NCBI RefSeq assembly: GCF_964204645.1
Contig: NC_134034.1
Coordinates: 2,700,072 to 2,760,071 of the forward strand
Direction of reading: 5' to 3'
Length of the DNA: 60,000 nucleotides
DNA from: Tubulanus polymorphus
Taxonomy: Eukaryota > Nemertea > Palaeonemertea > Tubulaniformes > Tubulanidae
Positions 13,358 through 58,835 of this stretch are shown one piece after another. A program made the position numbers and the translations under genes. Each line of letters begins with the position of its first letter. Within the stretch, counting starts at the first letter, position 1. The notes beneath the pieces were generated by a model. That model saw only the letters and a program-made list of their open reading frames with translations. It was not told where the DNA came from and did no database searches.

Positions 13358-14120
13358 GGGGAAATAGGACACCCTTATGAAAGTGGGTCGGTTTGACTCG
13401 TTGGTATGGACGGGGCGATGGGGTTCCCTTATGAAAGTGAGAGGTGGACTCCCCTTATGAAAGTGGGACGGTTTGACTGGTTGGTATGGACAGGGAGGTG
13501 GGATTCCCTTGTGAAAATGAGAGGTGGACTCCCCTTATGAAAGTGGGACGGTTTGACTGGTTGGTATGGACAGGGAGGTGGGATTCCCTTGTGAAAGTGA
13601 GAGGTGGACTCCCCTTATGAAAGTGGGACGGTTTGACTGGTTGGTATGGACAGGGAGGTGGGATTCCCTTGTGAAAGTGAGAGGTGGACTCCCCTTATGA
13701 AAGTGGGACGGTTTGACTGGTTGGTATGGACAGGGAGGTGGGATTCCCTTGTGAAAGTGAGAGGTGGACTCCCCTTATGAAAGTGGGACGGTTTGACTGG
13801 TTGGTATGGACAGGGAGGTGGGATTCCCTTGTGAAAGTGAGAGGTGGACTCCCCTTATGAAAGTGGAAAGGTTTGACTGGTTGGTATGGACAGGGAGGTG
13901 GGATTCCATTATAAAAGTGAGAGGTGGACTCCCCTTATGAAAGTGGAAAGGTTTGACTGGTTGGTATGGACAGGGAGGTGGGATTCCATTATAAAAGTGA
14001 GAGGTGGACTCCCCTTATGAAAGTGGAAAGGTTTGACTCGTTGGTATGGACAGGCAGTTGGGATTCCCTTATGAAAGTGAGAGGTGGACTCCCCTCTAGG
14101 AAGGTTTGACTCGTTGGTAG
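13358..14120 (+). repeat. 80-bp tandem array, highly homogeneous
   Basis: GAGGTGGACTCCCCT recurs at 13441 and then every 80 bp exactly up to 14081, nine times. Each unit has AAAGTGGGACGGTTTGACTG, GTTGGTATGGACAGGGAGG and GGATTCCCTTGTGAAA. The middle copies are nearly identical, the edges are diverged, and looser related DNA extends left to about 13225. Confidence 0.95.
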
Positions 14121-18450: not shown

Positions 18451-20084
18451 AACAAATGCGATAGACAATACAAGGAAGAGCATTAACATGCCATAAACAT
18501 TCAAGACACTGAGGACTAATTACTTTGCAAACGCGACTGGCAAATACAAGTTGCTGTTTGTTCTGAGTGATTTTCATTGTTTGTTTCACAAAGAAAGAAG
18601 GCGGCTTCGCAAACGTTCAATCTTGAATGATTATGCAAAATTAAATCGTTGAGTTTACGTGATTGACATGACAAAATGAACATTCCAGCTGCGCTTTAAC
18701 TAACCTTCGACTTGGGACGTATATAGTCGACCAAAGGCACTCTAATCCAGGTCAATATTGTAGACGAATGAAAAGGTACCACAATTTCGCGATATTATTT
18801 TGAGGAATTTTTGATGCAGACCACAGTAACTAGTTAGAAATTTGATTTCTCTCATTCAGGATTTAACTTCCCCGCGATTGCGGAATGGGATCCGAAGACG
18901 ACAAAATTCTGGGAACACTTGCTCACAATTTTGTTCGTTTGTTTTTGCATCACTTCGCTTCTAAAATTAAGCCAATATTCTTAGATAGTTCCTTTCTATT
19001 TCCCCTAAGGAACCATGCATTTTTCTCATATCAGTTACATTCAAACAGCCACTCAGAATGCCCCTACTTCCTCCGTCTCTTACGAAGAAGAGAGGAACGG
19101 TCATCAATGGCAGGAGCCGAGTCTCCCGAAGGAAACAGCTCCTACCGGCTTCGCGCTCAGAAGCAGGGACTTCAGCTCGTCACCGTGGTGTTGAGGTCGG
19201 AATCACATTTGCGTGACGTCCTAGCGATACATACTATAGAAATGATCCCTAAAAGTATGATCTTAACAATCCGGCCGTCGACTAAACGATTATATACTTG
19301 ATTTCTGGTGTCGAAGTGTTCGGTGTTACAAGATTTCACCTATATATATTAATACCACTCATTTAGATATAATATGTGGAATTTCCTATTTCCTTAATAT
19401 TTACATACATTTAAATGTCTATATTTAATGATTTTTACAGTCCAATTTGTACAAATAAGAACAATCGCATGAAATAAGTGAGCGTGGTCGCGCTACGATT
19501 GTCTAGTGAAGATCGGACACAACTCAAAAGCCGTCACCTATTCTATGGACTTCTATCGCGTGCCTTTCACGCGTTGCGCGCGCGAATAGCTCGCGAAATC
19601 TTATATCTCACACTGGGATATCTTTAAGAGTATCCGCGCAAAGTAGCGAGCGCCGACCCGTCCCACCACGCGGTGTAGGTACTGGCTTTATGAAAGATTA
19701 ATCCGCAAATTTTACGCAAAAGCTAATCCGATATCAGTGATTAGCTGCGAGATGGAAGTTCGACGAATGTAATTAGATTTGGCGGCAATTTGCCGAAATG
19801 GCGGCCAATCAATAATTCACGTGACAATTGCGGCGTTACGTCACCAGTCTCGGAGGCCAGGCGTCGTATTTTACGGCGGTAATTGGCTGCGAATGAAAGA
19901 CTCGGCTATGATTGAATAAACGAGTGAATTTTAATCAGGCCACAGAACACGAGTATAACTCGATTTACAAAGACGACGAAAAATGCAAATTGCATTGATT
20001 CCGGTGGCGCCGCTCTAGCAGTGAGCGTCGGCGCTTTCGATTGTCCAGTTCGACTTGCGAAATCTCTCGACCCAGATCCGCAGT

Positions 20085-22823: not shown

Positions 22824-23555
22824 TCGTCTACTAGGGGCAGGAGTTTGTACTGTGACCGGACGTATAAACTAGATCTAGTTTATACGTCCATGCTGTGACA
22901 GAGTCTCATGATGTCATCAGGTTCAAATCCCTGTTGAGGGAGGATGTGTCTACTAAGGGGCAGGGGTTTGTACTGTGATAGAGTCTCGTGATGTCATCAG
23001 GTTTGAATCCCTGTTGAGGGAGGATGTGTCTACTAGGGGCAGGGGTTTGTACTGTGATAGAGTCTCACGATGTCATCGGGTTCAAATCCCTGCTGAGGGA
23101 GGATGTGTCTACTAGGGGCAGGGGTTTGTACTGTGACAGAGTCTCATGATGTCATCAGGTTTGAATCCCTGTTGAGGGAGGATGTGTCTACTAGGGGCAG
23201 GGGTTTGTACTGTGACAGAGTCTCACGATGTCATCAGGTTCAAATCTCTGCTGAGGGAGGATGTGTCTACTAGGGGCAGGGGTTTGTACTGTGACAGAGT
23301 CTCATGATGTCATCAGGTTCAAATCCCTGCTGAGGGAGGTTGTGTCTACTAGGGCAGGGGTCTGTACTGTGACAGAGTCTCATGATGTCATCAGGTTCAA
23401 ATCCCTGCTGAGGTAGGATGTGTCTACTAGGACAGGGGTTTGTACTGTGACAGAGTCTCACGATGTCATCAGGTTCAAATCCCTGCTGAGGGAGGATGTG
23501 CCTACTAGGGCAGGGGTTTGTACTGTCACAGATATGTCATCATGTCCCTGCCGCC
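22824..23555 (+). repeat. family B tandem array with tRNA B-box-like motif
   Basis: Nine units starting at 22827, 22949, 23027, 23106, 23185, 23265, 23345, 23421 and 23500 (period about 78-80 bp). Each has GTCTACTAGGGGCAGGGGTT, TGTACTGTGACAGAGTCTC and GATGTCATCAGGTTCAAATC. The last part resembles a Pol III B-box (GGTTCRANNCC). The first unit is longer because of a 43-bp insertion including its duplication. Confidence 0.9.
22857..22892. mobile_element. 36-bp palindromic micro-insertion with 7-bp duplication
   Basis: Positions 22858-22889 form a perfect 32-nt palindrome (half-site GGACGTATAAACTAGA). CTGTGAC stands on both sides (22850-22856 and 22893-22899) but only once in the other units of the array, so this looks like a recent insertion with target duplication. 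Confidence 0.6.
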
Positions 23556-26375: not shown

Positions 26376-29300
26376 TTCCTCGGTGTTTCGCTGCTAAATT
26401 TCAATCAGAACGCGGTTAGAGGGATCTCACAACTCATGGAGCCCATAAACAGATTCAGTCAGTATATTTGCAAAAATACACTGATTTCTCATTCATTTGT
26501 GTCATTACCTGCTGTCATTTTGACGCGCGTTAGTTAATGACGGTTGGGATTTCGCTTGATATCTATTTCAAATTCATAAATGCAGAAACAATATGAGCAG
26601 CTAAGAGAATGACGGATGAAAATTATCCCCCAGGTATTAGTTTCATCGCGCGCGTTTTAAGTCGGATTTCTACCCGAGAATATAGAAAACTAAATGCGTG
26701 TGTGGGATGTGTGCATTGAAGGTGGAATCTACCCTGGCAATCGAGGAAACCGGGAACATCCGAGAATGCTAGACTTATAGTAAAATAACTGGAAAACTGA
26801 TATTAAGTCGAGAGACTGTCTTTTATTTGCTTGTTCACCTTCGTTTGATTCGGTGTCCACACCCACCACGTACGTATCTGCCGCGAGCGAAACAGGCCAT
26901 TTTTGAATCTGATTTTCGAAGTACGGATATTCTCGTGTGATCGTCCAATCTATAGAAGTTTTTGTTTAAATGGAAGAACATAATATTGCGAAATTACCAG
27001 TTCCGGTTCAATTCAAACAATCTTCCAACCCTGAACCGGCAAGCGACTGATTATAGGGTCAATTTTGTTAGTTGTCTAATTTAAAACATCGAGATTTCGG
27101 AAATAACTATATACTATAAGGTTGAAGATCATTTTGTCAATTTAAATGTCCTTTAAGCAAAACACACCCGAACTTGTAGCATACACAGACTATTATGACT
27201 TATCTAGAACTTGAACAAGTCGATACGTACAATAATTTGTCTACACCCTTTTTGCCCATATATGAAGCAGTAATAACTTACAGTAATACGACTATAACAG
27301 CTTTAAAGCAATTAAGTAATCCATAATCCAGTAAACAATATAAATAGCCTACTACAATCGCGAGTTATTTGGAGTTATTTGGTGCTCTTGAATGCAAAAA
27401 TAAAACCATATCGAATGCGGATAACAATTTAGTTGCGCGTAGTAAAAGTCGAAATGATTAAAGTTTGAATTGATGATTGACAGTATAGTTTTTATGCGTA
27501 CGTGTGTAGATTTTTTTCCCGAACCGACGATAGATATATTCAAAAGTTTTCGTTTTATATACAGATATTGATTAGCGTGTCGTTAGATTCAATGAAACGT
27601 CGATTCGATAATTCCGTTCGTACGAAATGTAAAATTCGATCGTGATTCTCGAAGAGATATTTTTATATGCTATTTATTGTGGCAGGTTACTACTATTCTG
27701 ATGACCTAGACTGATCCGTCCAATCAGAATCGGGCACATCCACGTGTACACAATAAGGCTCATAAAATTGATATCACGGGAAATGGTTTTTAGTATCAGA
27801 GCTGCATCGATTTAGATTTGTTTGACCTAGAATTGAGCACGATTTATCCTGTCATCTTTTTGATTGATTTGATGACATTTTCGGTGCTTTTTACTTAAGA
27901 AAAAAACCAACCAGACCTGCCGGGAACACAATGAAAGTAACGCTGATTTGTAAAGTTAATTTTATCATCATTTGCTCAGCAAGAAAGAAACACTTGCCTT
28001 GAGCCCAGAAAGAACTGGAAAGCTTGAAATTTTATTGACGTTCATTATTAGCAAATAATTCTCAATACTGTCATCAGTGAATAACATAATTTCCTACGAC
28101 CAATGAAATTGTTTCGAATTTGAATATATCGACAATTGAATTGAATCGACCGGTAACCGGTAACCGGTCGAGCCCAAATATCGATGACGTAGTACACGTT
28201 CGCTCAAAAATTCGTTTCCAAAAATGCGTGAAAATCTATTGAATAGAAAATATGAAAACTATTTAATTACGAAATCAAATTTTCACCGCGTTAATCGTTA
28301 TTTTGAAACACAAACATTGATGACGTAGTCCACATCGACTCGCAGAAGCCCTTAGAGATATTTTAAAGAAATTATTGAAAAACTTATTGTAACGGGTTTT
28401 ACGACCCAAAAAAATAAACAATGTATGTATGAATGTATTTCAAAGCATATTGATTATCATACATTTAACGCGGATATTGATTACAGCACAATCCATTTTT
28501 CTCTGATTGGTTAAAACAAATCTCAGTTACTCGGCCCTCTGATTGGTTGCTTACGAAAGTTAGGCAAACTATCAACAATTCAACGGATACTCTCTGATTT
28601 CACGCGAAACGAATGTATAACGCCACGCGGCCTTAAATCGGCAGAGACTAAATAAAAACCATCATCATCATCGGCAGGATTTTTATCAAAACAAACAGCA
28701 AAATATTGATAGATTTTATGAAATAGATAGAATAAAAGTCGTCACTCGCCGCCGAAACGTCGCATCGCGCAAACGGCTTTTGTGTGCTTAACGCTAAAAC
28801 GCGGTAAATCTAATGATGCCGGATGGATTCGGTTTTGACGTTAATACCACTGCGGACACCGCCGCCTGCTTTCGTGCGGGTAATAACCGTCATAAAAATC
28901 TGCCAGCAACAGATTTGTCATCATCGGTGTCGCCGTAAACCGATTTGAAATTGATGACTTCTGACGCCTGTAGTGTGGCGACTAAATCACATTCGCCATC
29001 GTCACATATCCGCCCCGTCTGCGACTAGCGCGCGTGTCATGTGATATCGATTTATGATGTTTTTTTTTTCGGTTTCGAAAATGATTTTTAATGGCGATAA
29101 AACAAAAATGAAATAGAAATGCTTTTAAGGCAGGAAACTATTGGAAAATAGGTCTATGATTTAAAAAACATTAAACTATTAGAGCCAGGGTAGGTGTGGT
29201 GGGGGTGGGCGGGAGTTGGTAGATTCAATGTGTTTCGATTTAAGGTGACAGTGAAATAACGCACACTTACCAGGGTTCGAACCCGGGTCGCGTGCATAGA

Positions 29301-29507
29301 AAGCTAGCACGCTTACCAGTATGGGCCAAAAGAATTACTCTACTATTGACCAGTAATCAATAAAAAAGCTTATCCTTTATTACGTAACGCGTGCGTTTTA
29401 TCATTCAGTTTCTTAACTGGAATTTTCCAGTTTGTGTGTAAACTTTCGAAGTCCCGGTCTTCAATTTCTGAGACTTGAATGCTACTATGCAATTAAAGAT
29501 GCCTCCT
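26376..29507. other. no gene seen
   Basis: AT-rich, with possible retroelement tails (AAAAAATAAACAATGTATGT at about 28410; AATAAAAACCATCATCATCA at about 28651). A near-palindrome of three ACCGGT-type sites lies at 28149-28172. Confidence 0.5.
29262..29330 (-). repeat. tRNA-like (SINE head?) fragment
   Basis: The reverse complement has TACTGGTAAGCG (weak A-box), a GCGTGC/GCACGC stem and ACCCGGGTTCGAACCCTGG (good B-box). There is no full cloverleaf, so a SINE remnant is more likely than a tRNA gene. Confidence 0.4.
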
Positions 29508-29550: not shown

Positions 29551-30033
29551 TTTCGGCGCTTCAGTTACTACTGTGGCAAGCGAGGATTCGTATCGCGCTC
29601 AAACGCTTTTTGGTGCCTCGATCCATTTCAAATTTTTCAATGAACCAAGAATTTAGACAGGTTCGAAATTAACGGAGGCAGAAGTGAAGCAAAACATTTG
29701 GCCCGAAGCCAACTAAGGGTTTTCGTTTGAAGTTCGAATGTTATACTTTCGATCGGAAATATTGGATTGACAAAAAAATGAAATCATGATTCATTTCCTT
29801 CACGTAACAGAGAACAAAATTAACGATTTTGTTTCTCTGCGATGATGCGAACTGCGACAAATACAACTCAGATTTTTAAAAAGACTAATTGTGACTCAGG
29901 GCACACAGGAAGACACACCCTAAATTATTTCCGGTGTTTATTGCCCATTATCCAATTGCGTCATACAAAATCATGCACAAAACATTCTCAAATTCTTATC
30001 GACCTGTTTTGTTTTTCAGATTGTTGTCTAAAA

Positions 30034-31109
30034 ATGAGGAGCCCTATTCGCTGTAGAGCGCTTTGTCTTTTATTACTGACCTTATATGCAACTACATTTG
30101 TTACGTGCGCGAGACACTATTTACGGGTAAGTTAGTTTGATGGGTTCGAATCCCGGAATCATCTTTTTTTATCTAACAAACACTGCAATATTGTTTTCCC
30201 CTATCGTTGCAGAATTTGAAACGATTCGATTCAGCCGAAGACTGGACCCGGGATAAACTGGCTAGATGGGCGAAACGGGCCTCGTACATTGACGATAAGA
30301 GGTCGAGATGGGCATCGAAAAGAGCATCTTTAATTGACGATAAAAGGGCCTCATTGATAGATGATAAAAGGGCTTCGTTGATAGATGATAAGAGGGCTTC
30401 GTTGATAGATGATAAGAGGGCCTCATTGATAGATGATAAGAGGGCTTCTTTGATAGATGATAAGCGGGCCTCATTGATAGACGATAAAAGGGCCTCGTTG
30501 ATAGATGACAAGCGGGCCTCATTGATAGATGATAAGAGGACTCCATTGAGAGATGATAAGCGTGCATCATTTATTGATGATAAGCGGGCATCGCTTATAG
30601 ATGATAAGAGAGCCTCGCTAATAGATGATAAGAGGGCATCATTCATTGATGATAAACGATCGCGATGGCCAGCTAAAAAGGCTTCATTTATAGATGATAA
30701 AAGGGCTTCGTTCATTGATGATAAGAGGTCCGATTGGTCTGATAAGAGGGCCTCGCTGATAGACGACAAGCGATGGTTTCCTGGTAAGAGAGCGTCATTC
30801 ATTGACGATAAGAGGGCCTCATTCATCGATGATAAAAGGGCACAACCAACTGATAATAAGAGGGCCTCGTTTATCGATGATAAAAGGGCCTCGCTGATAG
30901 ATGATAAGAGGGCTTCGTTCATTGATGATAAGAGGGCCTCGTTTATTGATGATAAGAGGGCTTCGCCGAGTCAGGATAAAAGGGCCTCGTTTATCGATGA
31001 TAAGAGGGCGTCGTTTATAGATGACAAGAGGGCCTCTCGACGGGAAAAGTTAGCTGACGCGATGGTGATGCACGAATTGAAAAGGGTAAGACACAAGTGT
31101 GGCGTTTGA
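30034..31109 (+). CDS. multicopy secreted peptide (neuropeptide-like) precursor, AS[L/F/Y]IDD repeats
   Basis: Likely secretory-pathway precursor processed at dibasic sites. Coding exon 1 is 30034-30126: its acceptor TTTTTCAG ends at 30019, the ATG is at 30034 and the donor GTAAGT at 30127. It encodes 31 residues with a basic n-region (MRSPIRCR) and hydrophobic core (ALCLLLLTLYATTFVTC), a classic signal peptide probably cleaved near TC-A or CA-R. Exon 2 starts at 30213 (acceptor TTGCAG) in phase 0. It has a short acidic leader (FDSAEDWTRDKLARWA), then 25 hexapeptides between Lys-Arg sites: 1 ASYIDD, 13 ASLIDD and 11 ASFIDD. The set is broken by SRWAS, TPLRDD, SRWPA (followed by KK), SDWSD, WFPG, AQPTDN and ASPSQD. 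Most copies lack a C-terminal Gly, so the main peptides would be free acids; only WFPG-KR could give an amide. The end is uncertain: a stop at 31107-31109 after LKRVRHKCGV (329 aa in total), or splicing at the donor GTAAGA at 31086 into an unseen exon. Variable third codon positions argue for selection on the protein. I do not recognise the family. Confidence 0.85.
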
Positions 31110-32159
31110 CGAGCTGTCAAACGCTAATGATAATTCGTCGTTTCATATCGAACTCTTTTTTGAAATCTACATTTTTTATCCGGTCCTCACTTTGCCCTCG
31201 CAAACTATCTCAGCACACGCACTGTCTTTGATTCGGCGTCCTAGGTTGCTCGAGGTGGTTATAGTTAACCATCCGATGAATCGATAGTAAAGAAACGACG
31301 CCGCTTTTATTGGCACTAATTGTTAAGTTATTCAATGGTTAACTTTTACCAGTTTTTATTGTCACTGTCAGTTATCCGATGGCTAACTTTAACCAGTTCT
31401 AACTGTCCGCTGGTTAACTTTATCCACCTGTTGAGCTGCTCGAACCTACATTGCAATCTATCCCTCACATACGTAGGAATTGAAATGCAGATAATTGTTT
31501 ATTCGACTAGATAACACCCCCCCCCCCATCACCCTTCCTCTTACCATAGAAGTATGGACTAGATTATGCGTCCATGCCCTTTTTCTTTAGCTCTCCGATC
31601 CAAACTCTAGTATCGCTGTCAAGCTCACAGTTGCTGACCGCTCGTTGGCTAATTATCAAACATCCTCGCACTTTCGCTATGCTACATAGTCGCTGATTGG
31701 TTGGTTCATTGCTTCGCAATCGTCAATTGCTCGAATCTCGAAAAGCGAATTGAACGCCACCTAGCGGTCAGCAATTGTTAAACGATCGTGTATAACGCCA
31801 ACAGAGGGCGTTAAAGGGTGATTGGTTGTTGTACGAAACGAATTATTATACAATTTCTAGATGATGTTAAACCGTGGCGCACAGTCCAATGATGAAGACA
31901 AAGGGCCCGTGGTTCGTCGCTATTACCAATATTGATACTATCATTAGATACATGCATGGTATGTTGTCACCTACGTATGTGTATAAACGTACTCTACATG
32001 TTGTTAAGAACTACTCAACCCCCCCCCCCCCCAAGTGTTATAGATGTATTCTGAAACCACGGACCGATTCACCCAATGCCATTCCTTTACCGATGGCAGA
32101 TCACCATCTGTCGACGTTTAAAAGTGAAAGAGTGAATCTCACGATGCTAGGGTTCAAAG
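31110..32159. other. no gene assigned; possible 3' part of the peptide gene
   Basis: If the donor at 31086 is used, the last exon of the peptide precursor should lie here or further right, but I could not find it. Poly-C runs are at about 31517 and 32020. Confidence 0.4.
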
Positions 32160-32880
32160 TCTCATGATGGTGTCATCGGGTTTAGATCTCTGCTGAGGGA
32201 GGATGTGTCTACTAGGGCAGGAGTTTGTACTGTGACTGTCTCATGATGTCATCAGGTTCAAATCCCTGCTGAGGGAGGATGTGTCTATTAGGGCAGGGGT
32301 TTGTACTGTGACAGAGTCTCATGATGTCATCAGGTTCAAATCCCTGCTGAGGGAGGATGTGTCTATTAGGGCAGGGGTTTGTACTGTGACAGAGTCTCGT
32401 GATGTCATCAGACTCAAATCCCTGCTGAGGGAGGATGCGTCTACTAGGGCAGGAGTTTGTACTTTGACTGTCTCATGATGTCATCAGGTTCAAATCCCTG
32501 CTGAGGGAGGATGTGTCTATTAGGGCAGGGGTTTGTACTGTGACAGTCTCATGATGTCATCAGGTTCAAATCCCTGCTGAGGGAGGATGTGTCTACTAGG
32601 GCAGGGGTTTGTACTGTGACAGAGTCTCGTGATGTCATCAGGTTCAAATCCCTGCTGAGGGAGGATGTGTCTATTAGGGCAGGGGTTTGTACTGTGACAG
32701 AGTCTCATGATGTCATCAGGTTCAAATCCCTGCTGAGGGAGGATGTGTCTATTAGGGCAAGGGTTTGTACTGAGGCAGAGTCTCGTGATGTCATCAGGTG
32801 CAAAAAAATCCCTACTAAGAGAGGATGTGTCTAGGGCAAGGGTTTATACTGAGGCTGGCTTTCTTGATCTCATCAGGTTC
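32160..32880 (+). repeat. family B tandem array
   Basis: About nine units of 74-80 bp, the same sequence family and orientation as 22824-23555 (GGGCAGGGGTTTGTACTGTG, CATCAGGTTCAAATCCCTGC). The last two units are diverged. No gene is involved; open frames here are frame-maintaining repeats. Confidence 0.9.
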
Positions 32881-33189
32881 ACACACAATATTACTAAACA
32901 ACTACGTATGCATACCTAAAATATCCCCTAGATGATTGGGTTTGAGGCCTACGCAACCAAAAAGCTACAACATTGAGATTTCATATCTTATATACCTCTA
33001 TTCCGCTCAAATGGTCTTCAGTATTTTGCTTTTTTACGCATCATCAAAGACAAACTTATAACTCGAAGTCAATATATCGCTTAAATCTTTCTCCGGCACA
33101 CTTTTCAATTTTGATGCCATCTTTGTTCTTAGCTTGGCCCGTTGCATTCTTAAATGATTTACCTCTTTGCCTTTTTGATTCGTTTCGAT

Positions 33190-33290
33190 AATCGATTTGA
33201 TCTTCTGCCGCGACGTCATCATCGATGACGTCATTAATCAACATCCAAATCGACAAACAGAACGCGTTGACACGGAGGCGTTTTATAGGT
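33190..33290 (-). promoter_or_regulatory. TATA plus CRE-type palindromes (possible promoter)
   Basis: On the minus strand CACCTATAAAACGCCTCC (about 33281) is followed about 50 nt later by ATGACGTCATCGATGATGAC, which contains a perfect CRE (TGACGTCA). A 60-codon minus frame starting about 33244 (MLINDVIDDDVAAEDQIDYR) follows, with a possible donor GTAAAT inside. No family is recognised; this could be chance. Confidence 0.25.
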
Positions 33291-34084
33291 GATCGCGATC
33301 AGACATCGAGGGGAACGCCCAGCTCGCCGATTCGACTTGGGGAGGCTTTAAAGCACCTTTCCATTCATTCGGAACCCCATCTCCAACTCAATTTTTCTAA
33401 ACCAACCCTGATCGATTCGGCTATGCCTGGGCAAAAGTTCTATTTACGGAGTTTAAGCTCAGCTTAGATTAATCAATAAAAAACGATGCCTAGTCGAAGC
33501 TGATCTTTCGAAGCGGACGTAATGCTTTTTCGTTGCCCACAGAAAAACGAAAATGTCGGTGCACATAAAAAAATGCCTCGGAGTGACGCAAGATATCCGC
33601 CAGTAACCTATTCTTTATATCAACAAGGCAAAGTTTCTTTTCGGTAAAAAAGAACGAGATGATTAAATCTGGCGAGATCGATAAAGACGTCTTTGTTCGC
33701 ACACAGAAACTAAAGTAAATAGATTTAAATGGGAAAACAAACATTGATTCATCGAGCGGAGATCATTTTCAACACAAAATTTCGATAGTCGATATTAAAA
33801 ATCTATCAAAAAGGCGTTTCAAGCATTTGACCCGTGATTTTTAGCGCGATGCTGAATGTCGAAATAATATAACCTTCACAATCGGTAATTCATAATCGAA
33901 AAAAATGAGTATAAATTGTTGATTTATTTTTTTGTACTCCTGTACGCCACCGCCCGACTCGCCCAGTATCTGTAATTCGCAACTACAATACGCAATATAC
34001 CTCTCAGATACATAGACAGAAATGTGATCAAAGCGAGATTGCGCGCAGAAGCCTGCGAATACTATTGCAAACCTTATAATAAGG

Positions 34085-34775
34085 GATTTTGAAAATTGTG
34101 GCAAGTAAGGATCCGCCGGGTGTTATCAATGGGCGGTCGGATACTCTTGCGATGGGGATTCCACTTGTGGCAAATTAGGATCCACCAGGGGTCGCTGTTG
34201 TACACTATTGGGAAAGTGAATGCAATAGCTCGCCGGTAAAGTTTGTCTATGAACATAGGCTTTACTGTGTAGCCATGGACATTCTACTTGTGGCAAGCGA
34301 CGGTCCAAAAGGTGTCGCCAGTGTGCAGTTGGACATACGCTATACAGCGGCAATAGGGATTCCCCTTGTGGCAAGTGAAGATCCACCAGGTGTCGCTAGT
34401 TTGCAGTAGGACATCAACTACTGAGGCAATAGGGGTTTCCCCTTGTGGCAAGTGAAGATCCACCAGATGTCGCTAGTGTGCACTAGGACATCAACTACTG
34501 AGGCAATAAAGGATTCCCCTTGTGGCAAGTGAAGATCCACCAGGTGTCGCTAGTGTGCACTAGGACATCAACTACTGAGGCAATAAAGGATTCCCCTTGT
34601 GGCAAGTGAAGATCCACCAGGTATCGCTAGTTGGCAGTAGGACATCAACTACTGAGGCAATAGGGGATTCCCCTTGTGGCAAGTGAAGATCCACCAGGTG
34701 TGCGATTAGACATCTGTTCAATCCACTAGTGCCAAACGATAATCCACCAGGTGGTGCCTGCAGTGTGTTATCAAA
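34085..34775 (+). repeat. family A minisatellite, longest array
   Basis: About ten units, period about 80 bp in the homogeneous part (34340-34700): TTCCCCTTGTGGCAAGTGAA, GATCCACCAGGTGTCGCTAG, GACATCAACTACTGAGGCAA. The left edge is diverged. Confidence 0.9.
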
Positions 34776-38287: not shown

Positions 38288-52564
<14,277 letters not shown>

Positions 52565-54896: not shown

Positions 54897-56150
54897 ATGA
54901 ATCAGTTGACTACAGTTACTTCACTTGAACCTGTGAACAATTTCACCTATACCGGCAGTTATACAACTACAACTCGTCGTCAGTATTCACTCACAGATGC
55001 GTTCTTTAGATTCATAACATATACCAGCAGTGGAAACCATTACACGAGAATATTGCTGGTGCATCCTATAGGAAATGTGTTCAATTTTCTAACTATATGT
55101 TTACTGATAAAATGTCGGAGAAGTCAGTCGATTCGTTACACGTTCCCCTATCTGATGACTATCGCGATCACTGATCAAACTGTTCTTATGTATCATTTGA
55201 TTCGTGATTACTCCCAAGTTATGATCGGATTCCTCTACAAAATCGGATTGAACAAATGTGTCATATTTTTCATGTCACTCAGTGACGTCAGAAAACGGTG
55301 TCCGTATATTTACTATTTCTATTACTATTTTCAGTATCTTCCCGAAAGGTTGGTTCCGGGGTGTTTCTGCGAAGCTCTGTTCTTTCATCGAGCAATTGCT
55401 GTATCAAACTACACAGTTCTAGTGATCGCTATCGAGAGATTTGTAGCGATTCGTTTTCCTTTCTTTCACATGAAACATTTCACCGTTCAAAGGCGTAAAA
55501 TGGCGGTTGTTGTCGTGTTGCTGTGGGCTTTTATTCTAGGAGTCTTCGACATTATTTCATTCAGTGATTTTCGCCTCGAAGAACGTAAAAGATTCAGACG
55601 CAATGAAACCATACTCGAATGGAAATGTAATTTTCCGAGTTTTCTGCTCGGATATGGACGGATTAGTAACTTTTTTTACTTTCTAGATCCTTTTATCAAA
55701 GATATGCTACCATGTTTTCAAATAGTTATATTGTCAGTAATAACTGCTGTATCACGTAATAAGATATCTGACCTGACAGCGATGAGGAGAACAGATCGTC
55801 ATCAATCTTCCGCTAGTAAAACTCTTCTTATTGTTGTTTTTTCGTTCATAGTGCTTGTTTTACCGAGTACCACATGCAGTTTATTATTTTACCTCAATAG
55901 ATTTATAGGTAGTATTTTCTCGGCTGCTGGTAAATGGTCCGCGTACCTAGTGACGCACAACAAGCTTAGTACCATGCATTACTTAGGGAGGTGGTTATTA
56001 ATATTCCGGCAATCAGTTTTCTGTGTAAACTTTTTCATATACGTAGGAACCATTCCGGTTTTCCGAAAACAATTCATTCACTTATTCATCTGTTCGAAAC
56101 GAGCAAATTCAATTGAGAAAAAAATGAAACAGAAAATGCATCAGGTGTGA
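54897..56150 (+). CDS. class A (rhodopsin-like) GPCR, tandem copy 1
   Basis: Intronless 417-aa seven-helix receptor, probably for a peptide at the plasma membrane. The N-terminus carries an N-glycosylation site (N15-F-T). TM1 is about 52-73 with the GN motif (N60). TM2 is 82-103 with D93 at position 2.50. TM3 is 157-185, starting at a Cys (C156/C158) and ending ERF (180-182) in place of DRY. TM4 is 201-220 with W210. ECL2 has C244, the disulfide partner, and a second glycosylation site (N236-E-T). TM5 is 264-285 with P272, TM6 306-331 with LVLP (P323), and TM7 366-390. The TM7 motif reads N378-F-F-I-Y instead of NPxxY. A short basic tail ends KKMKQKMHQV. The start ATG follows a region conserved in the next unit, and AATAAA lies at 56453. 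The motif set resembles invertebrate peptide receptors of the FMRFamide-receptor type, but the ligand cannot be assigned. Confidence 0.9.
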   Translation: MNQLTTVTSLEPVNNFTYTGSYTTTTRRQYSLTDAFFRFITYTSSGNHYTRILLVHPIGNVFNFLTICLLIKCRRSQSIRYTFPYLMTIAITDQTVLMYHLIRDYSQVMIGFLYKIGLNKCVIFFMSLSDVRKRCPYIYYFYYYFQYLPERLVPGCFCEALFFHRAIAVSNYTVLVIAIERFVAIRFPFFHMKHFTVQRRKMAVVVVLLWAFILGVFDIISFSDFRLEERKRFRRNETILEWKCNFPSFLLGYGRISNFFYFLDPFIKDMLPCFQIVILSVITAVSRNKISDLTAMRRTDRHQSSASKTLLIVVFSFIVLVLPSTTCSLLFYLNRFIGSIFSAAGKWSAYLVTHNKLSTMHYLGRWLLIFRQSVFCVNFFIYVGTIPVFRKQFIHLFICSKRANSIEKKMKQKMHQV

Positions 56151-57581: not shown

Positions 57582-58835
57582 ATGAATCAGTTGACTGCAG
57601 TTACTTCACTTGAACTTGTGAACAATTTCACCTCAACCGGCAGTTATACAACTACAACTCGTCGTCAGTATTCACTCAGAGATGCGTTCCTTAGATTCAT
57701 ATCATATACCAGCAGTGGAAACCATTACACGAGAATATTGCTGGTGCATCCTATAGGAAATGTGTTCAATTTTCTAACTATATGTTTACTGATAAAATGT
57801 CGGAGAAGTCAGTCGGTTCGTTTCACGTTCCCCTATCTGATGACTATCGCGATCACTGATCAAACTGTTCTTATGTATCATTTGATTCGTGATTACTCCC
57901 AAGTTATGATCGGATTCCTCTACAGAATTGGATTGAACAAATGTGTCATATTTTTCATGTCACTCAGTGACGTCAGAAAACGGTGTCCGTATATTTACTA
58001 TTTCTATTACTATTTTCAGTATCTTCCCGAAAGGTTGGTTCCGGGGTGTTTCTGCGAGGCCCTGTTCTACTTTCCAGCAATTGCTGTATCAAACTACACA
58101 GTTCTAGTGATCGCTATCGAGAGATTTGTAGCGATTCGTTTTCCTTTCTTTCACATGAAACATTTCACCGTTCAGACGCGTAAAATGGCAGTTGTTGCCG
58201 TGTTGCTGTGGGCTTATATTCAAGGAGTTTACGATATTATTTCGTCCAGTGATATTCACCTCGAAGAGCGTAAAAGATTCAGACTTAATGAAACCATACT
58301 CGAATGGAAATGTAATTATCCGAGTTTTCTGCTCGGATATGGACGGATAGGTTACGTTTTTTCATTTCTTGATCCTTTTTTCACAGATATGCTACCATGT
58401 TTTCTAATAGTTATTTTATCAGTAATAACTGCTGTATCACGTGATAAGATATCTGACCTGACAGCGATGAGGAGAACAGATCGTCATCAATCTTCAGCTA
58501 GTAAAACTCTTCTTATTGTTGTTTTTTCGTTTATAGTGCTTGTTTTACCGAGTGCCACATGCAGTTTATTATTTTACCTCAATAGATTTATAGCTAGTAT
58601 TTTCTCGGCTGCTGGTGAAAGCTCCGCGTACCTAGTGACGCACTACACGCTTGGTCCCATGCATGACTTAGAGAGGTGGTTATACATATTCCGGCAATCA
58701 GTTTTCTGTGTAAACTTTTTCATATACGTAGGAACCATTCCAGTTTTCAGAAAACAATTCATCCAATTATTCACCTGTTCGAAACGAGCAAATTCAATCG
58801 AGAAAAAAATGAAAAACAAAGTGCATCAGGTGTGA
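57582..58835 (+). CDS. class A (rhodopsin-like) GPCR, tandem copy 2
   Basis: Intact 417-aa paralogue of the receptor at 54897-56150, about 89% identical by my count (45 substitutions, no gaps). All key positions are kept: N60, D93, ERF at 180-182, W210, C244, P272, P323 and the N-F-F-I-Y motif in TM7. Residues 42-162 (TM1-ECL1) differ at only three sites. Residues 206-275 (TM4, ECL2, TM5) differ at 16 and residues 338-368 (ECL3) at 10. The promoter-proximal 350 bp are almost identical to those of copy 1. The 3' region lacks the AATAAA that follows copy 1 (AATAAC here), but another AATAAA occurs near 59448. The shared flanks show duplication of the whole unit, not retroposition. Confidence 0.9.
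   Translation: MNQLTAVTSLELVNNFTSTGSYTTTTRRQYSLRDAFLRFISYTSSGNHYTRILLVHPIGNVFNFLTICLLIKCRRSQSVRFTFPYLMTIAITDQTVLMYHLIRDYSQVMIGFLYRIGLNKCVIFFMSLSDVRKRCPYIYYFYYYFQYLPERLVPGCFCEALFYFPAIAVSNYTVLVIAIERFVAIRFPFFHMKHFTVQTRKMAVVAVLLWAYIQGVYDIISSSDIHLEERKRFRLNETILEWKCNYPSFLLGYGRIGYVFSFLDPFFTDMLPCFLIVILSVITAVSRDKISDLTAMRRTDRHQSSASKTLLIVVFSFIVLVLPSATCSLLFYLNRFIASIFSAAGESSAYLVTHYTLGPMHDLERWLYIFRQSVFCVNFFIYVGTIPVFRKQFIQLFTCSKRANSIEKKMKNKVHQV

Follow-up and report, generated by a model that had tools for sequence, protein, structure and literature searches.

A two-exon gene for a repetitive peptide precursor lies on the forward strand of the window, by which we mean the whole 60,000-nucleotide stretch of Tubulanus polymorphus DNA that was analysed (contig NC_134034.1, positions 2,700,072 to 2,760,071). 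Its exons, the first of 31 codons, join in phase 0 when the sequence is read out and encode 329 amino acids (Table 1). The intron has consensus ends (donor CGG/GTAAGT, acceptor CGTTGCAG/). The first 26 residues of the precursor look like a signal peptide, with a Kyte-Doolittle hydropathy peak over residues 9-17 (nine-residue mean of 2.93), and from the (-3,-1) rule we presume that the signal is cleaved after TCA-26.

Table 1. Features of the precursor gene, with positions counted from the first letter of the window.
Feature	Position	Strand	Content	Basis
Exon 1	30034..30126	+	start codon, signal-peptide-like segment (MRSPIRCRALCLLLLTLYATTFVTCA), RHYLR	sequence and hydropathy
Intron, 86 nt, phase 0	30127..30212	+	GTAAGT...TTGCAG	sequence only
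Exon 2	30213..31109	+	linker, then 25 AS[LFY]IDD units with their spacers, followed by a C-terminal tail and TGA	sequence
Array	30279..31025	+	copy 1 (first codon) to copy 25 (last Asp codon), with intervening spacers	sequence
Putative alternative phase-0 splice donor	31086..31091	+	AAAAGG/GTAAGA	sequence

Both ends of this gene model carry some uncertainty. Because the frame upstream of the ATG at 30034 stays open from 29824, the choice of this start leans on an acceptor-like TTGTTTTTCAG that ends at 30020 and on the A at -3 of the ATG. At the other end, if the alternative donor at 31086 is used, VRHKCGV, the final seven residues, may be intron read-through together with the end of exon 2, and a further exon would exist; eight candidate exons were found 3' of this donor, which are not distinguishable from one another. 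No AATAAA was found from 30901 to 33474, and an AGTAAA is present at 31286. The uncertainties of the start and of the C-terminus both leave the repeat array untouched. A 265-aa frame that runs across the array on the minus strand was taken to be an antisense shadow of the repeat.

Several other features share the window with the precursor gene. A tRNA-Arg(tct) called by ARAGORN at 29261-29335 (-), 0.7 kb upstream of the gene, may be either a gene or a tRNA-derived repeat, and a full-length match to U3 snoRNA (Rfam RF00012, 148.7 bits) lies at 19048-19264 (-). Arrays resembling minisatellites, whose units measure about 77-80 bases, were seen at 13372-14095, 22893-23532, 32167-32881, 34287-34701 and 43125-43482; those at 22893-23532 and 32167-32881 have one unit in common, and the latter is found some 1 kb 3' of the precursor stop codon. 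An open frame at 42849-43151 (-) gave no Pfam family at E <= 0.1, and we take its C-terminal part to resemble the tail end of PRPF40, a splicing factor. Two rhodopsin-type (7tm_1) receptors without introns are found at 54897-56147 and 57582-58832 (+), with 372 of 417 residues identical, and two further copies lie just outside the window. When such a receptor was searched against its own assembly, scoring of 100 of the 399 candidates gave at least 100 matches with identities of 38-100%, and most of the matches listed consist of one open frame each, of roughly 400-450 codons. Among 2727 candidates no protein-database homologue of the receptor was found at E <= 0.001. By their sequences, these receptors look like a large lineage-specific, chemoreceptor-like expansion.

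The precursor carries 25 hexapeptides (13 ASLIDD, 11 ASFIDD and one ASYIDD), and the linker RHYLRNLKRFDSAEDWTRDKLARWAKR precedes the array. KR directly follows every copy and stands before 24 of them, the remaining copy being preceded by KK, and the whole precursor holds 34 KR and one KK. The spliced gene with 25 such copies that had been put forward in a preliminary description of this DNA is thus borne out by our count. Its further statement that each copy is bounded by Lys-Arg holds for every site after a copy and for all but one of the sites before, while the strong signal peptide that it named stands as a hydrophobic start recognised by hydropathy, with the start codon taken from the sequence. 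The dibasic pairs are mostly six residues apart, with spacings of 4, 5 and 16 residues also present and a 16-residue stretch at each end. Three six-residue units are degenerate (TPLRDD, AQPTDN and ASPSQD), each of them between intact KR pairs, and the shorter spacers are SRWAS, SRWPA, SDWSD and WFPG; the copies that adjoin units of 4, 5 or 16 residues retain their dibasic pairs. In none of the 25 copies does a Gly stand before KR, and therefore the hexapeptides would be free acids, with predicted [M+H]+ values of 633.309 for ASLIDD, 667.293 for ASFIDD and 683.288 for ASYIDD. The WFPG spacer, the only fragment ending in Gly, could be amidated. Conserved repeats with dibasic bounds, the general mark of a multicopy prohormone, are found here in 25 copies, all of them flanked, and the multicopy, apparently secreted, free-acid architecture proposed earlier is upheld. 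Judged by these features, the locus is a well-preserved multicopy peptide precursor gene. In our judgement it is an unusual one, with acidic, unamidated peptides in so many copies.

In a search of the protein database, in which the 7999 candidates sharing most words were scored, the sole match at E <= 0.001 was LOC135500346 of Lineus longissimus (P0001), with E 9.3e-8, 41% identity and 46% of the query covered. P0001 has ten copies of ASWLDF, with KR or KK before each. When P0001 was in turn searched against the whole T. polymorphus assembly, with all four candidates scored, two matches were returned, both in the precursor gene (E 3.9e-10 and 5.3e-9). As a protein query P0001 retrieves, besides itself, P0002, a metagenome protein of 223 residues that lacks an initial Met and has eight ASWLDF and one ASWLDT; P0002 gave no match at E <= 0.001 in the T. 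polymorphus assembly (17 of 17 candidates scored). The BLASTP alignments reported for P0001 stay inside the repeat region and the linker, and beyond these no conserved stretch was seen. When 3000 random hexapeptides were substituted for the unit in the precursor scaffold, three matched P0001 as well as or better than the native one. Among the 720 orderings of the unit, four score at least as high as the native one against P0001, two of these being the native order and its swap of the last two positions, and three do so against P0002. As far as these alignments go, the resemblance to P0001 shows specificity in both residue order and composition, but descent cannot be proved from six residues. 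Pfam matches of the T. polymorphus precursor to Iron_traffic (E 1.1e-4, below its cut-off) and Gp5_trimer_C (E 0.16) were taken as repeat artefacts.

From its species and motif, we take P0001 to be the published L. longissimus AxxxDF precursor. In the portion of Thiel et al. 2021 (PMC8557429) drawn on here, an AxxxDF peptide is reported in nemerteans and brachiopods, and mass spectrometry of L. longissimus larvae is stated to have confirmed predicted peptides from 18 precursors, AxxxDF included. A literature search with AxxxDF, ASWLDF and the repeat motifs led to Thiel et al. as the source of AxxxDF and to no IDD peptide, supplements being outside the search, and a search with ASLIDD and ASFIDD gave no paper on neuropeptides among those listed, judged by title.

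The precursor was also searched against its own assembly (267.8 Mb in 77 contigs), and 27 matches were obtained among 122 of 201 candidates scored. Two of these lie in the precursor gene, one on its antisense strand and 24 elsewhere, with 13-39% identity. The six of these 24 that were read (L003-L008) are short-period repeats and have no run of KR-bounded hexapeptides; within this scope a second such gene was not recognised. A COX1 search of the assembly gave no candidate, the control succeeding in 8 of 14 genomes, and no cox1 motif was found in contig C77 (all 15,646 bases) or in the first 10 kb of C75 and C76. C77 has only short frames and, over its first 10 kb, no tRNA call; C76 contains an open frame of 1071 codons under table 5. 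Among viral contigs no relative was found either with P0002 or with a degenerate DNA pattern of the repeat.

We propose that the gene probably encodes a neuropeptide-type prohormone for free-acid AS[L/F/Y]IDD hexapeptides and that it is likely a divergent homologue of AxxxDF in which the final Phe has been replaced by Asp. Among the readings that accept a peptide precursor, the sequences make homology to AxxxDF fairly likely. The route through convertase, carboxypeptidase and dense-core vesicles is established for such precursors. Here the N-terminal signal sequence would bring the precursor into the secretory pathway, prohormone convertases would cut after the dibasic sites and a carboxypeptidase would then trim the basic residues, so that about 25 free-acid hexapeptides could be freed from each precursor. 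The hexapeptides would be released from dense-core vesicles and act on a putative receptor. Expression, processing, secretion from neurons and function, like homology, are what we infer from the gene.

Several other explanations of the array have to be weighed. In 2000 codon shuffles of exon 2, AS[LFY]IDDKR never appeared and the number of KR did not exceed 14, compared with 34 in the actual sequence, and thus the array is not a product of chance. Across the 25 copies pS is 0.753 and pN 0.033, a ratio of 0.044 that is biased low since the copies were picked by motif; over 28 six-residue units, the three degenerate ones included, the values are 0.746 and 0.083 and the ratio of 0.11 is the fairer one. 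Silent sites in the array have diverged widely, and the protein that it encodes is conserved. A secreted structural or adhesive protein made of charged ASLIDDKR octapeptide repeats, and left uncut, would account for the regular 8-residue period over long stretches and for the numerous charged residues. We consider such a protein very improbable, as the 4- and 5-residue units break the period although the copies next to such units still have their dibasic pairs, and as TPLRDD, AQPTDN and ASPSQD still stand between intact KR pairs. Near-free synonymous sites, a conserved peptide and dibasic pairs kept next to units of odd length fit selected, cleaved peptides better than a structural repeat.

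If the gene is a true peptide precursor, it might still belong to an independent, lineage-specific family whose likeness to AxxxDF came about by convergence of a very short motif. The few random hexapeptides that equalled the native one, together with the many precursor families that exist, are consistent with this, as are the empty search of the assembly with P0002 and the single database match among the candidates scored. The terminal residue, which is usually critical in short peptides, also differs in all 25 copies. Convergence nonetheless appears somewhat unlikely, given that five of the six positions are identical or conservative relative to ASWLDF, that both precursors have units of equal length in the same dibasic frame and without an amidation Gly, and that the whole-assembly search with P0001 returned the precursor gene only. 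The same peptides, AxxxDF-homologous or not, could instead serve outside the nervous system, in epithelial defence, as a pheromone or as a settlement cue, since nothing in the sequence fixes the cell type and the very high copy number would suit bulk release. We regard a non-neural role as unlikely, given that the nearest family was classed as neuropeptide by its authors, from larval extracts and sequence, a classification that does not in itself prove a neural origin (the portion of PMC8557429 drawn on here). This reading overlaps the others, so the confidences expressed here do not sum to one. More tentatively, and as a possible rather than a probable reading of the sequence, the gene may represent a lineage-specific system of acidic, free-acid, IDD-ending neuropeptides that either arose anew or switched a receptor-contacting C-terminus from Phe to Asp, with a co-evolved receptor of its own.

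Should the preferred reading of a divergent AxxxDF relative be correct, the gene would show how far the C-terminal residue of the family can change and would offer a second set of peptides for finding its receptor. According to the same portion of Thiel et al. (PMC8557429), no receptor is known for a large number of neuropeptides, the majority of which are confined to lophotrochozoan groups. Convergence, on the other hand, would add the gene to the examples of short free-acid peptide families that have arisen within single lineages.

The preliminary description had left the precursor unassigned and had given clear membership of a named peptide family as grounds against this. A relative has been found, the nemertean ASWLDF precursor that fits the AxxxDF motif, and the label now holds only in part. 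Ala1 and Asp5 of the six-residue AxxxDF unit are present in 25 of 25 copies, whereas the last residue is Asp instead of Phe in all 25, and for this reason we do not claim strict membership. With P0001 the copies have in common Ala1, Ser2, a large hydrophobic residue at position 3 (Trp in P0001), Ile or Leu at position 4 (Leu in P0001) and Asp5, in addition to the multicopy hexapeptide, the dibasic bounds and the lack of an amidation Gly. The two precursors differ in that P0001 has 10 copies, most of them separated by spacers, and the present one 25, mostly head-to-tail. In P0002 one of the nine ASWLD units ends in Thr and the other eight in Phe. Achatin-type peptides (GFFD/GFAD-like) are short, multicopy free acids that end in Asp and are bounded by dibasic sites, as are the hexapeptides described here; the achatin unit, however, is a tetrapeptide that begins with Gly, and none of the 35 fragments obtained by splitting at KR does so. 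Pedal peptide/orcokinin-type precursors likewise have many tandem copies between dibasic sites without amidation, but their units are much longer than the six residues of AS[L/F/Y]IDD.
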